From Bacteroidales bacterium (GTDB taxonomy: Bacteria > Bacteroidota > Bacteroidia > Bacteroidales > UBA7960), in the NCBI GenBank assembly GCA_007129945.1, contig SKUN01000132.1:1-41191 (forward strand): a stretch of 41,191 nt of DNA. Direction: 5' to 3'. Positions 4,801-25,181 of this stretch are shown here, in pieces (positions within the stretch are counted from its first letter, which is position 1; every line of letters starts with the position of its first letter). A program made the translations under genes and the position numbers. The notes beneath the pieces are model-generated. The model ran no database searches and was not told the origin of the DNA. It saw only the letters and a list, made by a program, of their open reading frames with translations.

Positions 4801-6996
4801 CTAATTGAGACCAGGTATAGTCATCTCCTCCAGGAGGTAGCCGGCCCCGGCATATTGATCAATAATAAAGAGCACATAACGTATGTCCACACTGATGGCT
4901 CGCTGAAGTTCAGGAGCATAGGCTATGTCCGAAGACATGGCTTCCCAGTTTCCGTCGTAGGCAATCCCTACCAATTCCCCCCGACTATTCAGCACAGGGC
5001 TTCCGGAATTGCCTCCGGAAATATCAATATTTGAAAGAAATGAAACCGGCAATATCCCACCATCACCGTAGGGACCAAAATCTCCTGTGCTCAGCAATTC
5101 GATAAGCTTATCCGAAGTGCTGTATAAATCGGGATGCATCGTAACTTTTTCGATAATCCCTTTATGAGTTGTAAAAGGCTCGTAGATAACCGCATCATGG
5201 GGTTCATACCCTAAAACACTTCCGTAAGTAACCCGCATGGTAAAATTGGCATCAGGATATAAGCTTCGCTCAGTGATCATCTCATTAAGGGCTTCATACC
5301 AAAGTCTTTTGCCGGGAATCAGGTAACGCTGGTTAATTTCCGTATTATGCTGCCGGAGTTCTACTGCTTTACTGAATACTGAATTGGTAAAATGAAAGCC
5401 AACATCCCGACGTAACACTTCACGATCCGGGTTTTGAAGAAAGGTTTCCATTCTCCGCCTGTCGGTCAAAACGGAGGTTTCAAACATATATTCAATAAAA
5501 CGGTCAGTACAGCCCTCAAATTCCCGGTCTATTACACGGAGAAAGGCGGGTTGGTGATCTTCAGGAAGCTCATTGATTACATAAGGCAGCATTACTTTAA
5601 GAACTTTCTTTTCCGTTGGCATATGATAGGCAAAGAAGTTGCCCAGGGCATCCTGAAGTCCCGCAATGAAGCGCTCAATGGCCACCTCATCAGGCTCCCC
5701 GGCCGATAGCTGATTATTTAGTGTGTTCAATCGCCTTCCGAAAGGAAAGTAACTCTGACTTCCTACCAGTGCCTCCATGAGCAAACGATGACTGTAGGCT
5801 TTCTCCCTTCTTTCACTCATGGCATGTTCGATAAGGGCGAGGGCATCTCCAAATGTTTCCTCGCGTTGCGGATCCCGGGCCACCCATTGGCTAAACCTGT
5901 CCTCCAGCTCACGGGCATCCTCGATCACGCCAAGATTCCTCAACGCTTTATTCTGTCCTACAGAATATTTCCAGTAATTACTGGAATTAAAATAACGGGA
6001 CGCATACTGCAACCTGATCGCATCATCACTATCCATGGCCTCGCGCCATATTTCCTGCCGCTTCCCCCGGATTTCAGCACGGATTATGTTACCCACTTCT
6101 TTTTCCTCTAAAATCTCATACGAAGTCAGGTAACGGGTGGTTGCACCTGGATACCCCATGGCCATTACAAAGTCTTCCTCTTCAGGCCCCTCAAGGGTAA
6201 TCGGGAAATAATGAGCCGGTTCATAAGGGATGTTATTTTCATCATAAAAGTCAGATGGATGGCCGTCAGGTTCCACATAAACACGAAACAAGGCAAAATC
6301 GGCATTGTGATTCGGCCACTCCCAGTTGTCTTCATCTCCACCAAACTGACCGATTGAATTTGGTGGTGCACCAACCAGCCGCACATCAGAATAATCCTGA
6401 TATACGAAAAGCAGGTACTGTCCGACGTCACCCATCCTGAAAAGTTCTACCGCCCCCCTGTAGGGTCCTTCGGCAGAAACCTCCCGCTGGATAGTGCTTC
6501 GCTTTTGCCGAATGGCACGATTTCTCTCACCTTCGTCCATATCATCGGAAGGAGCAGCAAGCACCCTGTCGGTAACGTCTTCTATTCGCTTCAGGAAAGA
6601 AACGGAAAGCCCAGGCACATGCATCTCTTCTTCCCGGTTCATTGCCCAGAATCCTTCATGCAAGTAGTCATTTTCGCTGCTGCTTAAGGCCTGGAACAAA
6701 TCCACTCCACAATGGTGGTTGGTCAGCAATAACCCTTCTGGTGAGATGATTTCTCCGGTGCATCCGCTGCCAAATATGACTACTGCATCTTTAAGGCTTG
6801 ACTCATTGACCGAATAAATTTGCTCTGAAGTCAATTCAAGTCCAAGCTCCACCATATCATCCATGATCAGCTCCTCCAGATAGGGCAACAGCCACATTCC
6901 TTCATCTGCCTTCAGCTGAGGTTTGGCTGTCAATAAAAAAAAGGAACAAAGAATCAGGGAAGAATACTTATTAAAAGTTTTGGAACAGAAATGCAT
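4801..6996 (-). CDS. S46 family dipeptidyl-peptidase (DPP7-like)
   Basis: A 731-residue exported serine exopeptidase that would remove dipeptides from the N-termini of oligopeptides in the periplasm. A signal peptide ends before DEGMWLL (residue ~31), the usual mature start of S46 enzymes. The catalytic triad is seen as TNHHC (His95), HNADF (Asp233) and GGNSGSP (Ser664). Cysteines at 79 (GSGCTG) and 96 (NHHC) match the conserved active-site disulfide. Eighteen residues after the catalytic serine is glycine (YDGNWE). That position is Arg673 in P. gingivalis DPP11 and Gly in DPP7, so preference for hydrophobic or aliphatic P1 residues rather than Asp/Glu is expected. A second S46 gene lies 38 bases upstream in the same operon. 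Confidence 0.93.
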   Translation of the reverse strand: MHFCSKTFNKYSSLILCSFFLLTAKPQLKADEGMWLLPYLEELIMDDMVELGLELTSEQIYSVNESSLKDAVVIFGSGCTGEIISPEGLLLTNHHCGVDLFQALSSSENDYLHEGFWAMNREEEMHVPGLSVSFLKRIEDVTDRVLAAPSDDMDEGERNRAIRQKRSTIQREVSAEGPYRGAVELFRMGDVGQYLLFVYQDYSDVRLVGAPPNSIGQFGGDEDNWEWPNHNADFALFRVYVEPDGHPSDFYDENNIPYEPAHYFPITLEGPEEEDFVMAMGYPGATTRYLTSYEILEEKEVGNIIRAEIRGKRQEIWREAMDSDDAIRLQYASRYFNSSNYWKYSVGQNKALRNLGVIEDARELEDRFSQWVARDPQREETFGDALALIEHAMSERREKAYSHRLLMEALVGSQSYFPFGRRLNTLNNQLSAGEPDEVAIERFIAGLQDALGNFFAYHMPTEKKVLKVMLPYVINELPEDHQPAFLRVIDREFEGCTDRFIEYMFETSVLTDRRRMETFLQNPDREVLRRDVGFHFTNSVFSKAVELRQHNTEINQRYLIPGKRLWYEALNEMITERSLYPDANFTMRVTYGSVLGYEPHDAVIYEPFTTHKGIIEKVTMHPDLYSTSDKLIELLSTGDFGPYGDGGILPVSFLSNIDISGGNSGSPVLNSRGELVGIAYDGNWEAMSSDIAYAPELQRAISVDIRYVLFIIDQYAGAGYLLEEMTIPGLN

Positions 6997-7034
6997 AAAA
7001 AAGGTATTTAGGTAAATAAAACTGGTGAGCCGAT

Positions 7035-9287
7035 TTAATTTATTATTACCAACTCATTCATAATATTTGAAGCCCCCGCAAATTTATCCGTCACAAAAAG
7101 CACATAGCGGATGTCAACGTGGATGGCCCTGTTCAGCTCAGGAAAGAATACCACATCCCCGGCAAGCGATTCCCAGTTGCCGTCAAAGGCCAACCCTTTT
7201 AATTGTCCGTTTGCCCCAATAACCGGGCTGCCGGAGTTTCCTCCTGTAATGTCGTTATCAGTAATGAAATTCACCGGCATCCGGCCATCATCTCCGTAAG
7301 GACCAAATTGCTGTTCGTGGTACAGCGACAAAAGGTCATCCGGTACCACGAAATCATCATGCTCAGGATCCTCTTTTTCCATGACACCGCTTAACGAAGT
7401 GATATGGTGGTAATTTACCGCATCCCGAGGGCTATATCCAAGCACTTTCCCATAACTCATTCGCATGGTGAAATTGGCATCCGGGTACATACGATCGCCT
7501 TCGCTCTTTTCACGGATTGCCTCCATATAAAGACGCGAACCAGCCCGCTCTCCTTCCGAAAGCTCCCGGTTAATGTCACGCAGCTCAATGGCCTTATCAT
7601 AAATACTGACTGAATAGCGGATCACCGGATCCCCTTCCATTGCTTCCAGCCGAGGATTGCTGATAAAACGAGCAAAGCGCTCCGGACATGTCAGGAATGA
7701 GTTCTCAAACATATATGCTGCAAATTCCATGTAATTTCCGGCAAATGCACTATCCGCATAGTGAATAATATCAGGCTGATGTTCCCGGGGCAGTTCATCA
7801 CTGACCAGTTCCATCATCGCAGCCACCACACGACGGTCGGCAGGAGGATGATAATCCTCGTAAAACCCTGATTGCCTTCCTGAAAATCCGGAAACAACCT
7901 CAGCCAGTTCCGCCTGACTGATATCCTCATCGAGGTTACGGTAAAACACATTGGCACGAATGCCTGCCACATAAATCTCCGTTCCCATCAGCAGTGCTTC
8001 ATTCAGCAAATGATGGGCATAGGCAGTAGGTCGCTTTTCTTCCACAGATTCACGGATCATTGTCAGCACCTCACCGTATTTTTTCTTCCTCACAGGATCC
8101 TCATCTACCCAGTCCATAAACTGCTTTTCTTCAGCGCGTTTTATTTCGGGCACATCATGTCGCCTCAGCTGTTCCAGCTGACCCTGTGATAGTTGCATGC
8201 CATTGCTCGCATTGAAATACTTCGAGGCATATTTCAGCCTTACTTCATCACTGGCCTGCATTTCCTCCCGTATGATATCAAGTCGCCGTTTACGGGCCGC
8301 AATGCGCCCCGGATGGGTCACCTTCATCAGGTCCTCCACCTGGGAAGCTGTCAGATACCTTTGAGAACTTCCGGGATAACCCAGCACCATCGAAAAGTCC
8401 AGTTCGTTTATTCCACCCGCATTAATTTCCAGGTAACGGTCGGGCACATAAGGCACATTGTCCGGCGAATAATCTGCCGGCTGCCCCTCATTGTCAGCAT
8501 ATACCCGGATAAATCCGAAGTCGCCCGTATGTCTTGGCCACCTGAAGTTGTCTTCGTCACCACCAAACTTGCCTATGGAAGAAGGTGGAAACCCCACCAA
8601 ACGGACGTCCTTAAACACTTCATATATGTACAGGTAATATTTACCTCCCTGGTAGTGGTTGGACAAAAACCCCTGGGAATCTGTATCTGCGGTATATGCT
8701 GAGGCAATGTCTCTGCCAATGGTCAGCATGGAAACCCTTTCACCACGCTCCCTGCGGGAAGCAATCTCCTTTTGAACCTCATCGGTCACGTCAATGATTT
8801 TTTTCAGGAAAGTGACCGTCAACCCCGCTGCAGGAATCTCCCCGTCAAATGAAGAGGCCCAGTAACCGTCAGTGAGATAATCATTCTCAGCAGTACTGAC
8901 CCGTTGAATATGGTCGTAAATCACATGATGATTGGTAAGCACCAACCCATTTGCTGAGACCACTGAACCTGATCCCACATTGCCCACATTGACTACCGCA
9001 TCACTCAGACTGGCATCATCGTTGCTGAATATCTCCTCTGCGGACATTTTGCCCCCCAATGATTGGATATCTTCCATGTTGTAAGCACCAATCCTGGGCA
9101 ACAGCCACATGCCCTCATCACTCCGGGCCGGATTTGCGATTAACACAAAAACAAAAAGCAACACCATGATGGGCTTACCCGGTATCAGTTGAAGCCACAA
9201 GGATTTCAACATCCGCAAATCAAATTGTTTGTCAGGCCTGCAGGCCCTCAACTTACCGGATGTTCCTGTCGGGAATTTTTGATCCAT
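7035..9287 (-). CDS. S46 family dipeptidyl-peptidase, disulfide-less paralogue
   Basis: A 750-residue paralogue of the next S46 enzyme. Triad: TNHH (His121), HTGDF (Asp256) and GGNSGSP (Ser685), with glycine at +18 from the serine (FDGNWE), again DPP7-like. Both cysteines of the usual active-site disulfide are replaced (GSGSVV and NHHVIY). The first 25 residues are polar and precede a better signal peptide that begins at Met26 (MLKSLWLQ) and ends before DEGMWLL. The true start may therefore be 9212, giving 725 residues, close to the family length. It is 21 bases downstream of an outer-membrane barrel gene and likely co-transcribed with it. Confidence 0.9.
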   Translation of the reverse strand: MDQKFPTGTSGKLRACRPDKQFDLRMLKSLWLQLIPGKPIMVLLFVFVLIANPARSDEGMWLLPRIGAYNMEDIQSLGGKMSAEEIFSNDDASLSDAVVNVGNVGSGSVVSANGLVLTNHHVIYDHIQRVSTAENDYLTDGYWASSFDGEIPAAGLTVTFLKKIIDVTDEVQKEIASRRERGERVSMLTIGRDIASAYTADTDSQGFLSNHYQGGKYYLYIYEVFKDVRLVGFPPSSIGKFGGDEDNFRWPRHTGDFGFIRVYADNEGQPADYSPDNVPYVPDRYLEINAGGINELDFSMVLGYPGSSQRYLTASQVEDLMKVTHPGRIAARKRRLDIIREEMQASDEVRLKYASKYFNASNGMQLSQGQLEQLRRHDVPEIKRAEEKQFMDWVDEDPVRKKKYGEVLTMIRESVEEKRPTAYAHHLLNEALLMGTEIYVAGIRANVFYRNLDEDISQAELAEVVSGFSGRQSGFYEDYHPPADRRVVAAMMELVSDELPREHQPDIIHYADSAFAGNYMEFAAYMFENSFLTCPERFARFISNPRLEAMEGDPVIRYSVSIYDKAIELRDINRELSEGERAGSRLYMEAIREKSEGDRMYPDANFTMRMSYGKVLGYSPRDAVNYHHITSLSGVMEKEDPEHDDFVVPDDLLSLYHEQQFGPYGDDGRMPVNFITDNDITGGNSGSPVIGANGQLKGLAFDGNWESLAGDVVFFPELNRAIHVDIRYVLFVTDKFAGASNIMNELVIIN

Positions 9288-14273: not shown

Positions 14274-15146
14274 TTACGGAAGCCATTGGTCTACCCTGTC
14301 GCGATTCTCAGCAATCCAGGCTCTGGCAGCTTCCATTGGCTCCATTCCATCTTCAATATAGATCATTACTTCAGCCATCTCCTCGGGTGTCCAGTAAAAG
14401 TTATCCAGGAAATTGTATACATCAGGCGCTTTTTCCAGCAGATCAGGGTGCACAATGGTGGCAATGTGCTCAGCTTCACCAAGGGTCTTTCGGGGGTCTT
14501 CAAGGTATTTCAGGTCATAAGCGGCAAATTTCCAGTGGGGGGTCCATCCGGTAACGATGATCCACTCCTCACGGTCAATGGCACGCTCCAAAGCAGCGGT
14601 CATCGCTGCGTCCGAACCGGATACCAGGTTATAGTCCAAGTCGTATTCTTCGATTGTTCTTTCTGTGGCAGCCATCAGCCCTGCACCAGGATCAATTCCG
14701 ATGATCTCACCGTCAAACTCATCCACGTAGTCATTCAGCTCTTCGATGCTGTTCACGGGAACATACTCAGGAACAACAAGACCCAGCCGTGCACCCTCGA
14801 GATTGGCTCCGAGATTGATCACATCATCCTGGGTTTCTTCAAGGTATGCCTCATGGGTAACCGGAAGCCAGCCAGCAACCATTGCATCGAAGTCTCCCCT
14901 TGCCACACCCATCCACATTGGGCCGGCATCTACAGAAGTCAGGTCAACTTCATAGCCGAGGTCGTCCTGAATTACCGCCGCAACTACATGTGTGGAAGCA
15001 ATTTCAGAATCCCACAACACGTAACCGAGGTTGATTTCATCGGTTTCCGGTGCGCACGAGTTCATGCTGAAAAGCAATCCCACAGCAACAACAATTGCAG
15101 CTGCAATTGACAATGATTTGGTCAGTAATGTTTTTGTAATTTTCAT
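14274..15146 (-). CDS. opuAC: Glycine betaine-binding lipoprotein (ProX/OpuAC type)
   Basis: 290 residues from the ATG at 15146. The ORF track extends to 15212, but that extension runs into a terminator hairpin, and the internal ATG has a strong ribosome binding site (AGGAGGA, 7 bases away). The protein starts MKITKTLLTKSL, has a hydrophobic signal and a lipobox-like end (SMNSC), so it is probably a lipoprotein. Tryptophans of the expected aromatic ligand cage are visible in YVLWDSE, AGWLPVTHEAYL and VTGWTPHWK. It delivers betaine to the OpuAA/OpuAB complex. Confidence 0.93.
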   Translation of the reverse strand: MKITKTLLTKSLSIAAAIVVAVGLLFSMNSCAPETDEINLGYVLWDSEIASTHVVAAVIQDDLGYEVDLTSVDAGPMWMGVARGDFDAMVAGWLPVTHEAYLEETQDDVINLGANLEGARLGLVVPEYVPVNSIEELNDYVDEFDGEIIGIDPGAGLMAATERTIEEYDLDYNLVSGSDAAMTAALERAIDREEWIIVTGWTPHWKFAAYDLKYLEDPRKTLGEAEHIATIVHPDLLEKAPDVYNFLDNFYWTPEEMAEVMIYIEDGMEPMEAARAWIAENRDRVDQWLP

Positions 15147-15160
15147 TTGGTTTTCCTCCT
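15144..15160 (-). promoter_or_regulatory. Strong Shine-Dalgarno site deciding the opuAC start
   Basis: The minus strand reads AGGAGGAAAACCAAATG: a seven-base Shine-Dalgarno match spaced 7 bases from the ATG. Such sites are uncommon in Bacteroidota. It selects the start at 15146 over the longer reading frame. Confidence 0.85.
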
Positions 15161-15181
15161 GTTGTTTTGTTTCTAAAATAG

Positions 15182-21558: not shown

Positions 21559-21685
21559 TCAGTGTGCAGATAACCACTTAACCCATTCAGGAAGCCTCTT
21601 AATCCTTATTTCTATTTTTTGTTTTGTTTTTAGTATTAAACGTTATATTTTTATGACGGATTAATATTACTTAAACAAAACAGAT

Positions 21686-22024
21686 ATGGAAACAAAAACA
21701 ATCGGAAACGGAATCTGGGTCCGGGAAACCCGCCGCCTGCGGCTTATTCCTTTTGGAAACATCACCCATGTGCGCTACCACAACGGCTTATCGGTCGTTT
21801 ATATGGGGAAAGAAATTCTGAAAAAGCTTCACACCCCCCTGAACGGTCTGGAGCAAAAAATGCCTGAAGACCTGTTCTTCAGGACCCACCGAAACTATAT
21901 TATCAACAAAGCCTTCGTCAGCACCTATGAACCAGAAGGCAGGGTCAGCCTTTTGGCAGGAAGGGAAATCGTCCCGGTTGCCCGCAGAAGAAGAAGATCA
22001 CTGGAAATTTTTCTTTCATCCTGA
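21686..22024 (+). CDS. Stand-alone LytTR DNA-binding domain protein (first of a pair)
   Basis: 112 residues forming little more than one LytTR domain: RLIPFGNITHVRYHNGLSVV at the start, the FFRTHRNYIINKAFV core, and a very basic end (PVARRRRRSLEIFL). There is no receiver domain, membrane helix or kinase. LytTR domains bind DNA as beta-rich repeats, usually as the output of a response regulator. A receiver-less form needs another way of being switched or acts by abundance. A second LytTR gene follows 57 bases later. A possible -7 box, TATATTTT, lies at 21644-21651. Confidence 0.88.
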   Translation: METKTIGNGIWVRETRRLRLIPFGNITHVRYHNGLSVVYMGKEILKKLHTPLNGLEQKMPEDLFFRTHRNYIINKAFVSTYEPEGRVSLLAGREIVPVARRRRRSLEIFLSS

Positions 22025-22081
22025 GCAAAACGAGTGCTATCCTGATCATTTAGCCTGGTATTAATTAAACGATTTATAATC

Positions 22082-22402
22082 ATGGACACATCCGACGAAT
22101 TAAAAGAACTGATTACAGACAAGCAAGACATTGATTATGCTTTTTTGTTTCACGGTTATACCATCCTGGTAATGAAAAACGGTTCCAATGAAGTGGTTGA
22201 TATTCCCCTTTCCGCAATAGAAACGGCACTTACAGACCGGCTGTTTTTTCGGATTCACCGCTCATACCTGGTAAACCTCAGACGAGTCCGGGAAATGGAA
22301 ATCAAAAATAACCGCCTGCTGATCCGTATCCGGGGACATGAACTGCCTGTTGCCAGGCGGCGTAAAAGGCAGCTCCTTGAATTATTGGGCGCCGTAAATT
22401 AA
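22082..22402 (+). CDS. Stand-alone LytTR DNA-binding domain protein (second of a pair)
   Basis: 106 residues, a paralogue of the preceding protein: DYAFLFHGYTILVMKNGSNE, then FFRIHRSYLVNLRRVREMEI, ending PVARRRKRQLLELL. Again there is no receiver. The shared FFRxHRxYxxN and PVARRR motifs point to a local duplication followed by divergence. It precedes the exported Cache protein by 210 bases, a gap that holds a candidate promoter and a structured leader. The pair may form a heterodimer on DNA, which is an inference. Confidence 0.88.
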   Translation: MDTSDELKELITDKQDIDYAFLFHGYTILVMKNGSNEVVDIPLSAIETALTDRLFFRIHRSYLVNLRRVREMEIKNNRLLIRIRGHELPVARRRKRQLLELLGAVN

Positions 22403-22454
22403 AACAATAAGATCGTTTTACGGTTCCGCAATATCATTTCTTTTGTGTTTTAAC

Positions 22455-22485
22455 TTGTTTGTTCACTAATTTATCAATAAATTTA
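22455..22485 (+). promoter_or_regulatory. Candidate promoter of the Cache/CAP genes
   Basis: TTG at 22455-22457, 20 bases, then TAAATTTA (22478-22485), which differs from TAnnTTTG only in its last base. A GC-rich dyad (GGGTGGG at 22486-22492 with CCCGCCC at 22505-22511, one G-T pair) overlaps the expected start of transcription and could be an operator. Confidence 0.35.
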
Positions 22486-22560
22486 GGGTGGGAATAATGT
22501 TATGCCCGCCCGGAGGAGGCCTGGATTTTCAGGTATTTTTAATTGGTAAGACGGCGGATT

Positions 22561-22605
22561 CCCCCTGTAAGACAGCATTTTGTACCTACATATAAAACAG
22601 GAGGG
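22561..22605 (+). promoter_or_regulatory. Leader that can mask the Shine-Dalgarno site of the Cache gene
   Basis: The gene has an unusually good Shine-Dalgarno site, AGGAGGG (22599-22605), 7 bases before the ATG. Upstream, CCCCCTGT (22561-22568) can pair with ACAGGAGGG (22597-22605) with a single bulged A. That would hide the ribosome binding site in a long hairpin. The leader also holds CCTG-gatttt-CAGG further upstream. No known riboswitch consensus is recognised. Confidence 0.45.
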
Positions 22606-22612
22606 TATCACC

Positions 22613-24280
22613 ATGAAAAACTCACCAACTCAACACAAAGAAGTCCAAAAGAAAAACCATCTGAACCTTCGGGTTATTCTGCTGCTGATTTTCTGCTTCC
22701 AGTGGATACCCCTTTCCCATGCAGGGCTTTCATCCACTGAAAACGAAAACAAAGCGCCCACAGGCATTTTTGAAGGGTTTTCTGCACCCGGGAAGGAGGT
22801 TGATACAACTGTCCATGCTGACCAGTGGCCGGACAATGACCCGATGACTTACGATATTGATGCCAGGGCGGCACTGGGAACTGCTTCTGCACTGATTGAC
22901 CGTTACCTGCAGCATGCTTTAACTTCTTTACGACTGATCGCCGGAAGTCCCGCCACAAGAAGCGGAATCTGGCCCGAGATCCGGCCGGGACTGATCACAC
23001 TTCGGGATGCCATCCCGGGAGCAGCCCTCTATATCGAACCGGACGGAGGATATTACAGCGTTGATGACGGTTATACAGGCCTCAACCTGTCAGACCGTGA
23101 ATACTTCAGTTCACTTTTCAGTGGAGAAGAGATCCATGGGTCCCTGATATACAGTCGCTCAACAGGTAAACAATCCGTTCTGATGGCAGTCCCCGTCTTT
23201 GAAGGTGAAGAGATTACCGGTGCTGTGGCCATTTCCATTTTCCTTGATGAGTTCCAACAACTGATCAGTAACGCCCTGAACCTGGATGACGATTACCTAT
23301 GGTATGTGTTGGATGAAGAAGGAACAACAGTTCTGCACCCACGTACCGATTTTGTTTTCATGAACCCAACCGAAGAGGGAAGCCCTTCTTTGCGTCATGC
23401 TGTTGAGACCATGAAGGCCCATTCTCACGGCTACACCTCCTACATTTTCGCTGGCAGAAACACCCATATTCTATTTTCCCAGGTACCCTTCAACAACTGG
23501 CGTGTGATACTGGGTAAAATCGGAGAAAGATCGGATGATCACTATATGCCTGAAGCCAGTGAGATTCTTGAAAACCTCAGGCAAACCTTTTCTGAAGAAT
23601 TGCGAAGGATGGACCGGCAACTGGACGATGCAGTAACCTCCTTCAACGGACAAATCCCGCCGGAACATGTGGCCAGAGACACATTCAGAAGACTTTACCA
23701 GGATAACCCCTATATCGTGACTTGTGCCCTCATAGATACCGATGGGGTATTGGTGTATGTGGAACCATCCGAATTTCATCCCTCGGAAGGTGCTCATATC
23801 CGGGACCAGGAAAATTATTTCCTTATGCAAAAAAACAGGGCTCCCATGCTCAGCAATTCCTTCCTCTCTGTAGAAGGATTTGATGCAGTAAGTCTGCAAC
23901 ATCCGATTATAGATGATGATGGCGCATTTCACGGCTCGGTCAGTCTGCTTATCAGGCCGGATGTAATGATTGAGGAGCTGGCTACTCCCTATATCGCTGA
24001 AACCATGTATGAGCCCTGGATCATGGAACCAGAAGGCCGGATTATCTTTGACAAGGCTTTTGAGGGAACCGGCAGAATGCTATTCCTGGACTACAGGTAT
24101 GAGGAGCTGCAAAGTTTACTGGAACTGGGCGATGCCATTGCAGGAAATCCCAGTGGTACAGGAGATTACGTATATCAGGATCCCGAGAGTGATCAGCGAA
24201 TGGTCAGAATGGCTGTCTGGGACACCATTCGCCTGCATGATGCAAGATGGAGGCTGATCATTTCATATGCACCGTACTAA
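22613..24280 (+). CDS. Exported tandem Cache-domain sensor protein lacking a transmitter
   Basis: 555 residues from ATG 22613; the ORF-track start at 22580 lies upstream of the ribosome binding site. An N-terminal hydrophobic segment (LRVILLLIFCFQWIPLSHAG, residues ~19-38) is a signal peptide or anchor. Two Cache-like modules follow. The first, about residues 80-320, shows LNLSDREYFSSLFSG and GKQSVLMAVPVFEGE, typical ligand-pocket segments of dCache domains. The second, about 330-555, shows ALIDTDGVLVYVEPSEF and DQENYFLMQKNRAP. There is no second membrane helix, HAMP, kinase, GGDEF or methyl-accepting domain. Cache domains bind small molecules such as amino acids. This looks like a secreted or periplasmic receptor acting with a separate partner. 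The CAP lipoprotein gene follows after 25 bases. Confidence 0.85.
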   Translation: MKNSPTQHKEVQKKNHLNLRVILLLIFCFQWIPLSHAGLSSTENENKAPTGIFEGFSAPGKEVDTTVHADQWPDNDPMTYDIDARAALGTASALIDRYLQHALTSLRLIAGSPATRSGIWPEIRPGLITLRDAIPGAALYIEPDGGYYSVDDGYTGLNLSDREYFSSLFSGEEIHGSLIYSRSTGKQSVLMAVPVFEGEEITGAVAISIFLDEFQQLISNALNLDDDYLWYVLDEEGTTVLHPRTDFVFMNPTEEGSPSLRHAVETMKAHSHGYTSYIFAGRNTHILFSQVPFNNWRVILGKIGERSDDHYMPEASEILENLRQTFSEELRRMDRQLDDAVTSFNGQIPPEHVARDTFRRLYQDNPYIVTCALIDTDGVLVYVEPSEFHPSEGAHIRDQENYFLMQKNRAPMLSNSFLSVEGFDAVSLQHPIIDDDGAFHGSVSLLIRPDVMIEELATPYIAETMYEPWIMEPEGRIIFDKAFEGTGRMLFLDYRYEELQSLLELGDAIAGNPSGTGDYVYQDPESDQRMVRMAVWDTIRLHDARWRLIISYAPY

Positions 24281-24305
24281 TAGCTAAAAATTTCCGCAAT
24301 TGACA

Positions 24306-25181
24306 ATGAAAGCCCTGCCAAGGAAGTCTGAATCACCAGTTACTGACAACAATCTTATTAACCGGTTAATCTATATTCTCCCCCTTGGTGTATTGCTGCT
24401 GGCCTCGTGCATGCGTTTTCTGCTGTCAATAGACTATGCCGGCATCAGTGGCCAAAAAGTGGCGGAGCGACATCTGAGCAACGAAGAATATGCCAACAGA
24501 TTGGAAGCTGACGGATGGCCTGTCCATGAATTGAACACAGCCGCCGATCATGCATACCTGGACGATGAAGAAAAGAACCTGGTCCTTGCCCACAACCTGG
24601 TAAGATATGACCCGGGAAAGTTTGCACGGCAATATGTGACGGAGTACATTACGTATTTTGAGGGCAAAGAGTTTCATTACCCGGGCAGAGACCTTATTAT
24701 GCTGACTGAGGAAGGGGTTGAGCCCGCAGAAGAACTTTACTGGGAGCTCCTGAACACTGAACCGGTCGGGATCTTGTTTCCTTCACAGGGGTTACATGAA
24801 GCAGCAGTTTCCCACGCTGATTATCTTGTTCGAAATAAAACAAGGGGCCACGGCGGACAGGGTGGTCTGGTGGCGAGGATAGAGAGAGAGGGTGACTGGG
24901 ACCGACAGATCGGTGAAAATATAGCCTATGGCAGTTTTTCCCCTCATGATGCACTGATGTACATGCTGATCAATGACAACGTGGCTGACAGGACCCACAG
25001 GCAAAACATACTGAATCCGGGCTTCCGTTTTATCGGGGTGGCCATGGATTATCATCCGCTATTCCCGGATGGGGAAATTTACGTCATCAACTACGCCTTT
25101 TATTTCAGGGAAACCCAGTCCGGCGTCCGAAGACCCCATCAGGACAGAAGAAGAATCCGTCCAATCCACGTCTGGGATTAG
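24306..25181 (+). CDS. CAP/SCP-domain lipoprotein
   Basis: 291 residues from ATG 24306; the ORF track uses a TTG two codons earlier. A hydrophobic segment ends in a good lipobox (LLLASC), so this is probably a lipoprotein. The CAP domain (SCP/PR-1/YkwD type) spans about residues 90-275, with HEAAVSHADYLVRN, GENIAYGSFSPHDALMYML and the signature HRQNILNPGFRFIGVA. Bacterial CAP proteins are secreted and mostly of unknown biochemistry. It lies 25 bases after the Cache gene and is very likely co-expressed with it. Its stop overlaps the stop of the convergent E1 gene. Confidence 0.88.
   Translation: MKALPRKSESPVTDNNLINRLIYILPLGVLLLASCMRFLLSIDYAGISGQKVAERHLSNEEYANRLEADGWPVHELNTAADHAYLDDEEKNLVLAHNLVRYDPGKFARQYVTEYITYFEGKEFHYPGRDLIMLTEEGVEPAEELYWELLNTEPVGILFPSQGLHEAAVSHADYLVRNKTRGHGGQGGLVARIEREGDWDRQIGENIAYGSFSPHDALMYMLINDNVADRTHRQNILNPGFRFIGVAMDYHPLFPDGEIYVINYAFYFRETQSGVRRPHQDRRRIRPIHVWD

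Follow-up and report, generated by a model that had tools for sequence, protein, structure and literature searches.

How are two LytTR DNA-binding proteins controlled when neither has a receiver domain, and do an exported ligand-binding protein and a lipoprotein encoded beside them belong to the same system? These questions are raised by a locus on contig SKUN01000132.1 of the Bacteroidales assembly GCA_007129945.1, a stretch of 41,191 nucleotides, here termed the window, that forms contig C2 of a metagenome-assembled genome (MAG) of 2.41 Mb, 92% complete. The locus encodes, in order, LytTR1, LytTR2, Cache and CAP. Our answer, held tentatively and with somewhat less than even confidence, is that it carries a self-activating LytTR operon resembling the LytTR regulatory systems (LRS), in which a second LytTR protein takes the inhibitor's place and which probably acts on the Cache promoter, with Cache and CAP as its output.

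Receiver-less LytTR regulators are widespread, and have been characterised essentially only in Streptococcus, where they are accompanied by a membrane inhibitor (PMC6193735). In the LRS HdrRM and BrsRM a soluble receiver-less LytTR regulator has, ahead of its own promoter, 9-bp direct repeats, almost identical in sequence to those described below, that are separated by a 12-bp spacer, as in the HdrR repeat ACCTCTTAG-12-ACCACTTAA (PMC6193735, Zou et al. 2018). Wherever such repeats ahead of receiver-less LytTR operons have been characterised, they are self-targets (PMC6193735). As far as sequence can tell, the present locus works like an LRS; its parts are of known kinds, and what is new is the way they are combined and the lack of a membrane partner.

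The four genes and their products

The genes are as follows.

21686-22024, + strand: LytTR1, a LytTR-only regulator of 112 amino acids (PF04397, 45.8 bits, sole domain)
22082-22402, + strand: LytTR2, a LytTR-only regulator of 106 amino acids (PF04397, 63.1 bits, sole domain)
22613-24280, + strand: Cache, an exported protein of 555 amino acids that has two dCache units and lacks membrane and transmitter parts (Pfam, PDB 5ere, AlphaFold, Foldseek, hydropathy)
24306-25181, + strand: CAP, a CAP-domain lipoprotein of 291 amino acids with invariant H182, E204 and H231 (Pfam, alignment, fold)

A first-pass annotation, made by a model from the sequence alone, had described two tandem, paralogous LytTR proteins without a receiver, an exported double-Cache protein and a CAP lipoprotein 25 bases further on, and all of this was confirmed at the positions given there. 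The true Cache start is the ATG at 22613, which has a Shine-Dalgarno site ahead of it, and the gene ends at 24280, exactly 25 bases before the CAP ATG at 24306. LytTR1 and LytTR2 align with 32% identity (E=5e-11) and are soluble, with no membrane segment by hydropathy; both exceed the curated LytTR cut-off of 22.6 bits and keep the HR/N and PV(A/S)RR motifs. LytTR2 is the better conserved, with a mean column identity of 63% vs 40% for LytTR1. No receiver, HAMP, kinase or GGDEF/cyclase domain was found by Pfam in any of the four proteins.

Cache matches dCache_1 (82.6 bits) and PF22309 (92.3 bits), and by sequence it matches PDB 5ere (E=4e-29). The AlphaFold model (pLDDT 73) has two dCache units, and a Foldseek search with it placed 5ere on top and many dCache sensor domains lower in the list. 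Hydropathy shows only a signal peptide, with no further membrane segment, and there is no output domain. Likewise, most Cache orthologues start with a plain signal peptide; the three exceptions, L011, L017 and L018, carry a lipobox and are predicted lipoproteins. The amino-acid dCache motif was not seen on reading the alignment. The CAP protein matches its Pfam family at 32.1 bits (cut-off 21.1 bits), and its AlphaFold model (pLDDT 84) matches CAP/SCP structures in Foldseek; H182, E204 and H231 do not vary among 20 sequences. Its lipobox reads LLASC in this genome and a lipobox is present across congeners, where CAP is predicted to be a lipoprotein throughout.

An LRS-like repeat ahead of LytTR1

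The first-pass annotation proposed 21559-21685 as a LytTR target, and this region does hold a LytTR-type site, as judged by matrix score: a 9-12-9 direct repeat followed by a promoter of the Bacteroidota type.

21573-21581, + strand: LRS-like LytTR half-site 1, ACCACTTAA (comparative footprinting; matrix from published LRS repeats)
21594-21602, + strand: LRS-like LytTR half-site 2, GCCTCTTAA, preceded by the 12-bp spacer (pair score, fixed position)
21623-21653, + strand: LytTR1 promoter of the Bacteroidota type, with -33 TTTG (21623-21626) and -7 TATTTTTA (21646-21653) (ungapped conserved block, 19 species)

A ACCACTTA-like box and the promoter are both conserved 5' of LytTR1 in a 19-species comparison. 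The box was then scored with a matrix that had been built solely from published LRS repeats. The pair ACCACTTAA-N12-GCCTCTTAA (21573-21602) scores 20.8, vs 1.6 +/- 3.3 in dinucleotide shuffles, none of 2000 of which reaches it, and it is the best-scoring repeat pair of the whole 41-kb window. The pair is individually significant (p<0.05) in 12 of 19 sequences of the genus, and in 15 congeneric sequences 19-21 bp separate the end of the second box from the -33 element. The upstream region of LytTR1 in L020 is cut by a contig end. A scan with a loose LytTR consensus was uninformative in this AT-rich DNA, and no inverted repeat with covariation stood convincingly above column-preserving shuffles at either the LytTR1 or the Cache promoter.

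A dedicated promoter and a rare Shine-Dalgarno site ahead of Cache

In the other target proposed by the first-pass annotation, 22403-22612, scoring with the LRS matrix across the genus gives no LytTR repeat better than chance (mean z 0.08). What this region holds is a different conserved promoter, specific to the locus, together with two elements of the Cache leader.

22452-22494, + strand: Cache promoter block, with CTTG (-33), TAAATTTA (-7, 22478-22485), a conserved spacer and a downstream GGGTGGGAA; a possible operator
22560-22568, + strand: C-rich Cache leader element TCCCCCTGT (TTCCCCCTG), which is complementary to the Shine-Dalgarno site and lies ~40 nt upstream of it; found in about half of the congeners
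22598-22604, + strand: strong Shine-Dalgarno site CAGGAGG of Cache (AGGAGG in 19 of 20 Cache copies)

The 43 bp of the block are gap-free in 20 sequences, spacer and downstream positions included, and the flanking columns drop to background. A sequence model of the block finds this site as its sole strong match in the genome (E=2.3e-8; the next is at 0.06), and the block travels with Cache in two loci where the gene is inverted. No direct repeats worth noting beyond column composition were seen within it.

Strong Shine-Dalgarno sites are uncommon in this phylum; they precede only about six genuine gene starts in the whole genome, and AGGAGG does not occur ahead of LytTR1, LytTR2 or CAP. Bacteroidia ribosomes are reported to disregard such sites unless bS21 is lacking, and some ribosomal protein genes carry them (PMC9976891). 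The rare site of Cache, whose position is clear, may add a translational layer to Cache synthesis. The C-rich leader element could pair with the site, with a modest effect (pairing 0.75 vs 0.64 in shuffles). A structured RNA leader was rejected: no Rfam family matches, the fold of the whole leader has a z-score of 0, and sequestration of the site is no more than modest. In the window, where 31 genes were inspected, the only other CAGGAGG is that of the OpuA glycine-betaine-binding protein (15144-15161, - strand).

Comparison with known systems

The likeness to LRS consists of a soluble receiver-less LytTR protein and 9-bp direct repeats with an 11-13 bp spacer before the operon's own promoter. 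The differences are that a second LytTR gene is found here where LRS have an adjacent transmembrane inhibitor, that the repeats lie 19-21 bp before the -33 element rather than about 4-11 bp before a -35 element, and that this locus is linked to Cache and CAP genes. Two LRS traits, the adjacent membrane inhibitor and the usual distance from repeat to promoter, were looked for and are absent, and for this reason we do not class the locus as an LRS. Nearer in taxonomy are the LRS-like operons of Bacteroides (PMC6193735, Table 3), which share the class Bacteroidia, a LytTR regulator and direct repeats before a Bacteroidota promoter; their own traits are a regulator with transmembrane segments, an NfeD/DUF2154 membrane protein ahead of it, and 11-bp repeats with an 11-bp spacer (PMC6193735). 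A LytS/LytR two-component system is a poor match, since the receiver and the PF06580 kinase are both lacking here.

Cache shares its fold with dCache transmembrane sensors and lacks their membrane anchors and cytoplasmic output domain. It is closer to 5ere, an extracellular ligand-binding receptor of Desulfohalobium, and to the PF22309 lipoproteins, which like Cache carry a C-terminal dCache module in an exported protein without a transmitter. Cache joins two dCache units, whereas its Bacteroidales relatives have one and the sequence match to 5ere covers the C-terminal half only. The locus CAP protein has the fold, the His/Glu/His positions and the export of bacterial CAP/SCP proteins (YkwD-like; 4d53, 4ifa), but differs from them in being a lipoprotein with an N-terminal extension conserved in its family.

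How the locus may work

In the mechanism that we favour, LytTR1 and/or LytTR2 would bind the 9-12-9 repeat before the promoter of their operon and increase its expression; the site is seen in the sequence, and the binding and its sign are inferred. Domain content shows that the pair is not controlled through phosphorylation of a receiver of its own. The most likely brake would be LytTR2, whether as a partner or as an antagonist of LytTR1, or else an unlinked protein. The neighbouring Cache promoter is probably a further target of the switch, because its block is conserved and unique in the genome and no other regulator is encoded in the gene block. Cache and CAP would then form an envelope output, the former a periplasmic or lipid-anchored ligand-binder resembling solute-binding proteins and the latter a CAP lipoprotein; such an output role is more likely for them than that of an inward-signalling sensor.

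In favour of this reading, besides the repeat and the Cache promoter block, are the tandem LytTR-only pair of a sister genus (G028), the lone Cache lipoproteins of other families and the lack of a PF06580 kinase in the genome. Several observations weigh against it. The box ahead of LytTR1 was spotted by eye before the independent matrix was applied to it. The exact repeat with a 12-bp spacer is missing in L023, and L010 has at best a variant with an 11-bp spacer. The repeats stand ~20 bp upstream of the promoter, not ~10 bp as in LRS. Hydropathy of the locus proteins reveals no membrane-spanning protein, and thus no inhibitor of the LRS type, in the locus. LRS repeat pairs are not enriched genome-wide, with 33 matches vs 109 for a reversed control pattern, and no regulon emerges. 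Because no LytTR repeat precedes Cache, control of Cache and CAP by the LytTR pair is something that we infer, for Cache only indirectly. Finally, that the genes occur together within the genus says little about a joint function, because gene order upstream of the block is kept genus-wide too.

During the genome-wide scan one perfect-pattern repeat match, on C106, was considered as a regulon site and rejected, as it overlaps the start of an unrelated open reading frame (ORF).

If the favoured reading is true, a genus-wide two-LytTR operon with LRS-type repeats and no inhibitor would represent another way to restrain such a switch. The sites, 21573-21602 and 22452-22494, are exact enough for testing. 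The strong Shine-Dalgarno site conserved ahead of Cache is likewise unusual and open to testing, because Bacteroidia ribosomes for the most part disregard such sites (PMC9976891).

Distribution of the locus and alternative readings

The first-pass annotation would have been refuted had the four genes been together only in this genome. They are not: in 17 of 20 congeners a single contig carries all four in the same order, and two of these 17 have an inverted Cache gene at its usual position. The genomes compared are all draft MAGs, and their species are related rather than independent, amounting to ~15 lineages after close relatives are merged. Most MAGs with the block come from what we take to be soda-lake sediments, judging from sample codes in the record names. 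In two further congeners (G018 and G008) the block is incomplete through contig ends, and one (G004) lacks it. Cache orthologues (60-91% identity) are present in 19 of the 20 congeners and were found in none of the other genera of the family that were searched; in a scan of 85,462 species genomes, matches to Cache came from MAGs of this genus and from one Syntrophaceae contig, the latter a homologue of the C-terminal half. Nor was the complete block found outside the genus in the genera searched. The arrangement is not due to chance.

It may nevertheless be no more than an arrangement, and this is the alternative that survives best, one that we regard as quite possible: the LytTR pair would be autoregulated with its targets elsewhere, and Cache and CAP would be independent envelope genes kept in place by genus-wide collinearity. 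The segment upstream of the block (S41, OMP, RlmN, GH3 and beyond) is indeed collinear in congeners with long contigs. The parts are moreover found separately. In other genera of the family CAP orthologues have no LytTR or Cache gene beside them and in several adjoin valS; in G028, of a sister genus, two LytTR-only genes follow one another in this order, with a possible LRS-like repeat 5' of them and neither Cache nor CAP beside them; G021 holds a LytTR2 orthologue; and stand-alone single-module Cache lipoproteins (PF22309, ~265 amino acids) occur with no LytTR neighbours in other Bacteroidales families (L108-L115), apparently forming a widespread and little-described group. Cache also has its own promoter, and in two species, G011 (L022/L245) and G020 (L019/L246), it is inverted between LytTR2 and CAP, promoter and Shine-Dalgarno site included. 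Against independence, GH3, the upstream neighbour of the block, has no block beside it in sister genera, and all four genes are distributed alike across the genus; the promoter block of Cache is specific to the locus; and the genome-wide scan found no other repeat-bearing targets for the pair. Given the conserved synteny and the separate occurrence of the parts, functional linkage of the four genes is unproven.

A more elaborate scheme, in which the two LytTR proteins control one another with no membrane inhibitor involved and switch on the periplasmic double-Cache/CAP output from its dedicated promoter, with Shine-Dalgarno-dependent translational control in addition, we consider unlikely as a whole.

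Less likely again is the model of the first-pass annotation, in which Cache senses a periplasmic ligand and, with CAP, controls the LytTR pair through a membrane partner, the pair in turn regulating the locus. The dCache fold is typical of ligand sensors, LRS regulators are under membrane-protein control (PMC6193735), and the three Cache orthologues predicted to be lipoproteins would be membrane-associated. But the locus encodes no membrane-spanning protein, Cache homologues and 5ere are soluble or lipid-anchored and have no transmitter, and the Cache gene has a promoter to itself and is found in inverted orientation in some congeners. A PF06580 search for LytS-type kinases, positive as a control in three genomes, was empty in this 92%-complete genome, which bears out the kinase-less picture drawn there and at the same time weighs against the model. 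DUF3021, one family of LRS inhibitors, was not found in the genome either, in a search run without a positive control. The notion that sensor and output halves are joined by a membrane partner is not supported, since receiver-less LytTR proteins (as in LRS, PMC6193735), lone Cache proteins and lone CAP proteins all occur separately.

We find it very improbable that the pair acts downstream of a two-component system whose LytTR response regulator binds the LytTR1 repeats: two other LytTR proteins with receiver-like N-terminal parts are indeed encoded elsewhere in the genome (C54 and C189, by sequence reading), one of them close to genes whose sequences suggest a hybrid kinase and a receiver protein, but the characterised repeats before operons of the receiver-less kind are bound by the operon's own regulator (PMC6193735), and the position of the repeat is fixed across the genus along with the LytTR pair.

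Further observations

Phase-variable inversion of Cache was considered and rejected, as no convincing inverted repeats flank the gene at the two inverted loci. One congener (G006) has a second LytTR2(partial)-Cache-CAP copy (L042 on C15 vs L050 on C166), the two Cache copies being 82% identical, from either a block duplication or a mixed bin. The LytTR pair of G028 (L106, 3610-4296, - strand) consists of overlapping ORFs with a possible LRS-like repeat upstream, and an unrelated predicted lipoprotein is encoded ~600 bp downstream of it. Elsewhere in the window, at 4801-9287 (- strand), lie genes for two adjacent, related exported proteins that resemble serine peptidases (S46/DPP7-like by sequence reading).

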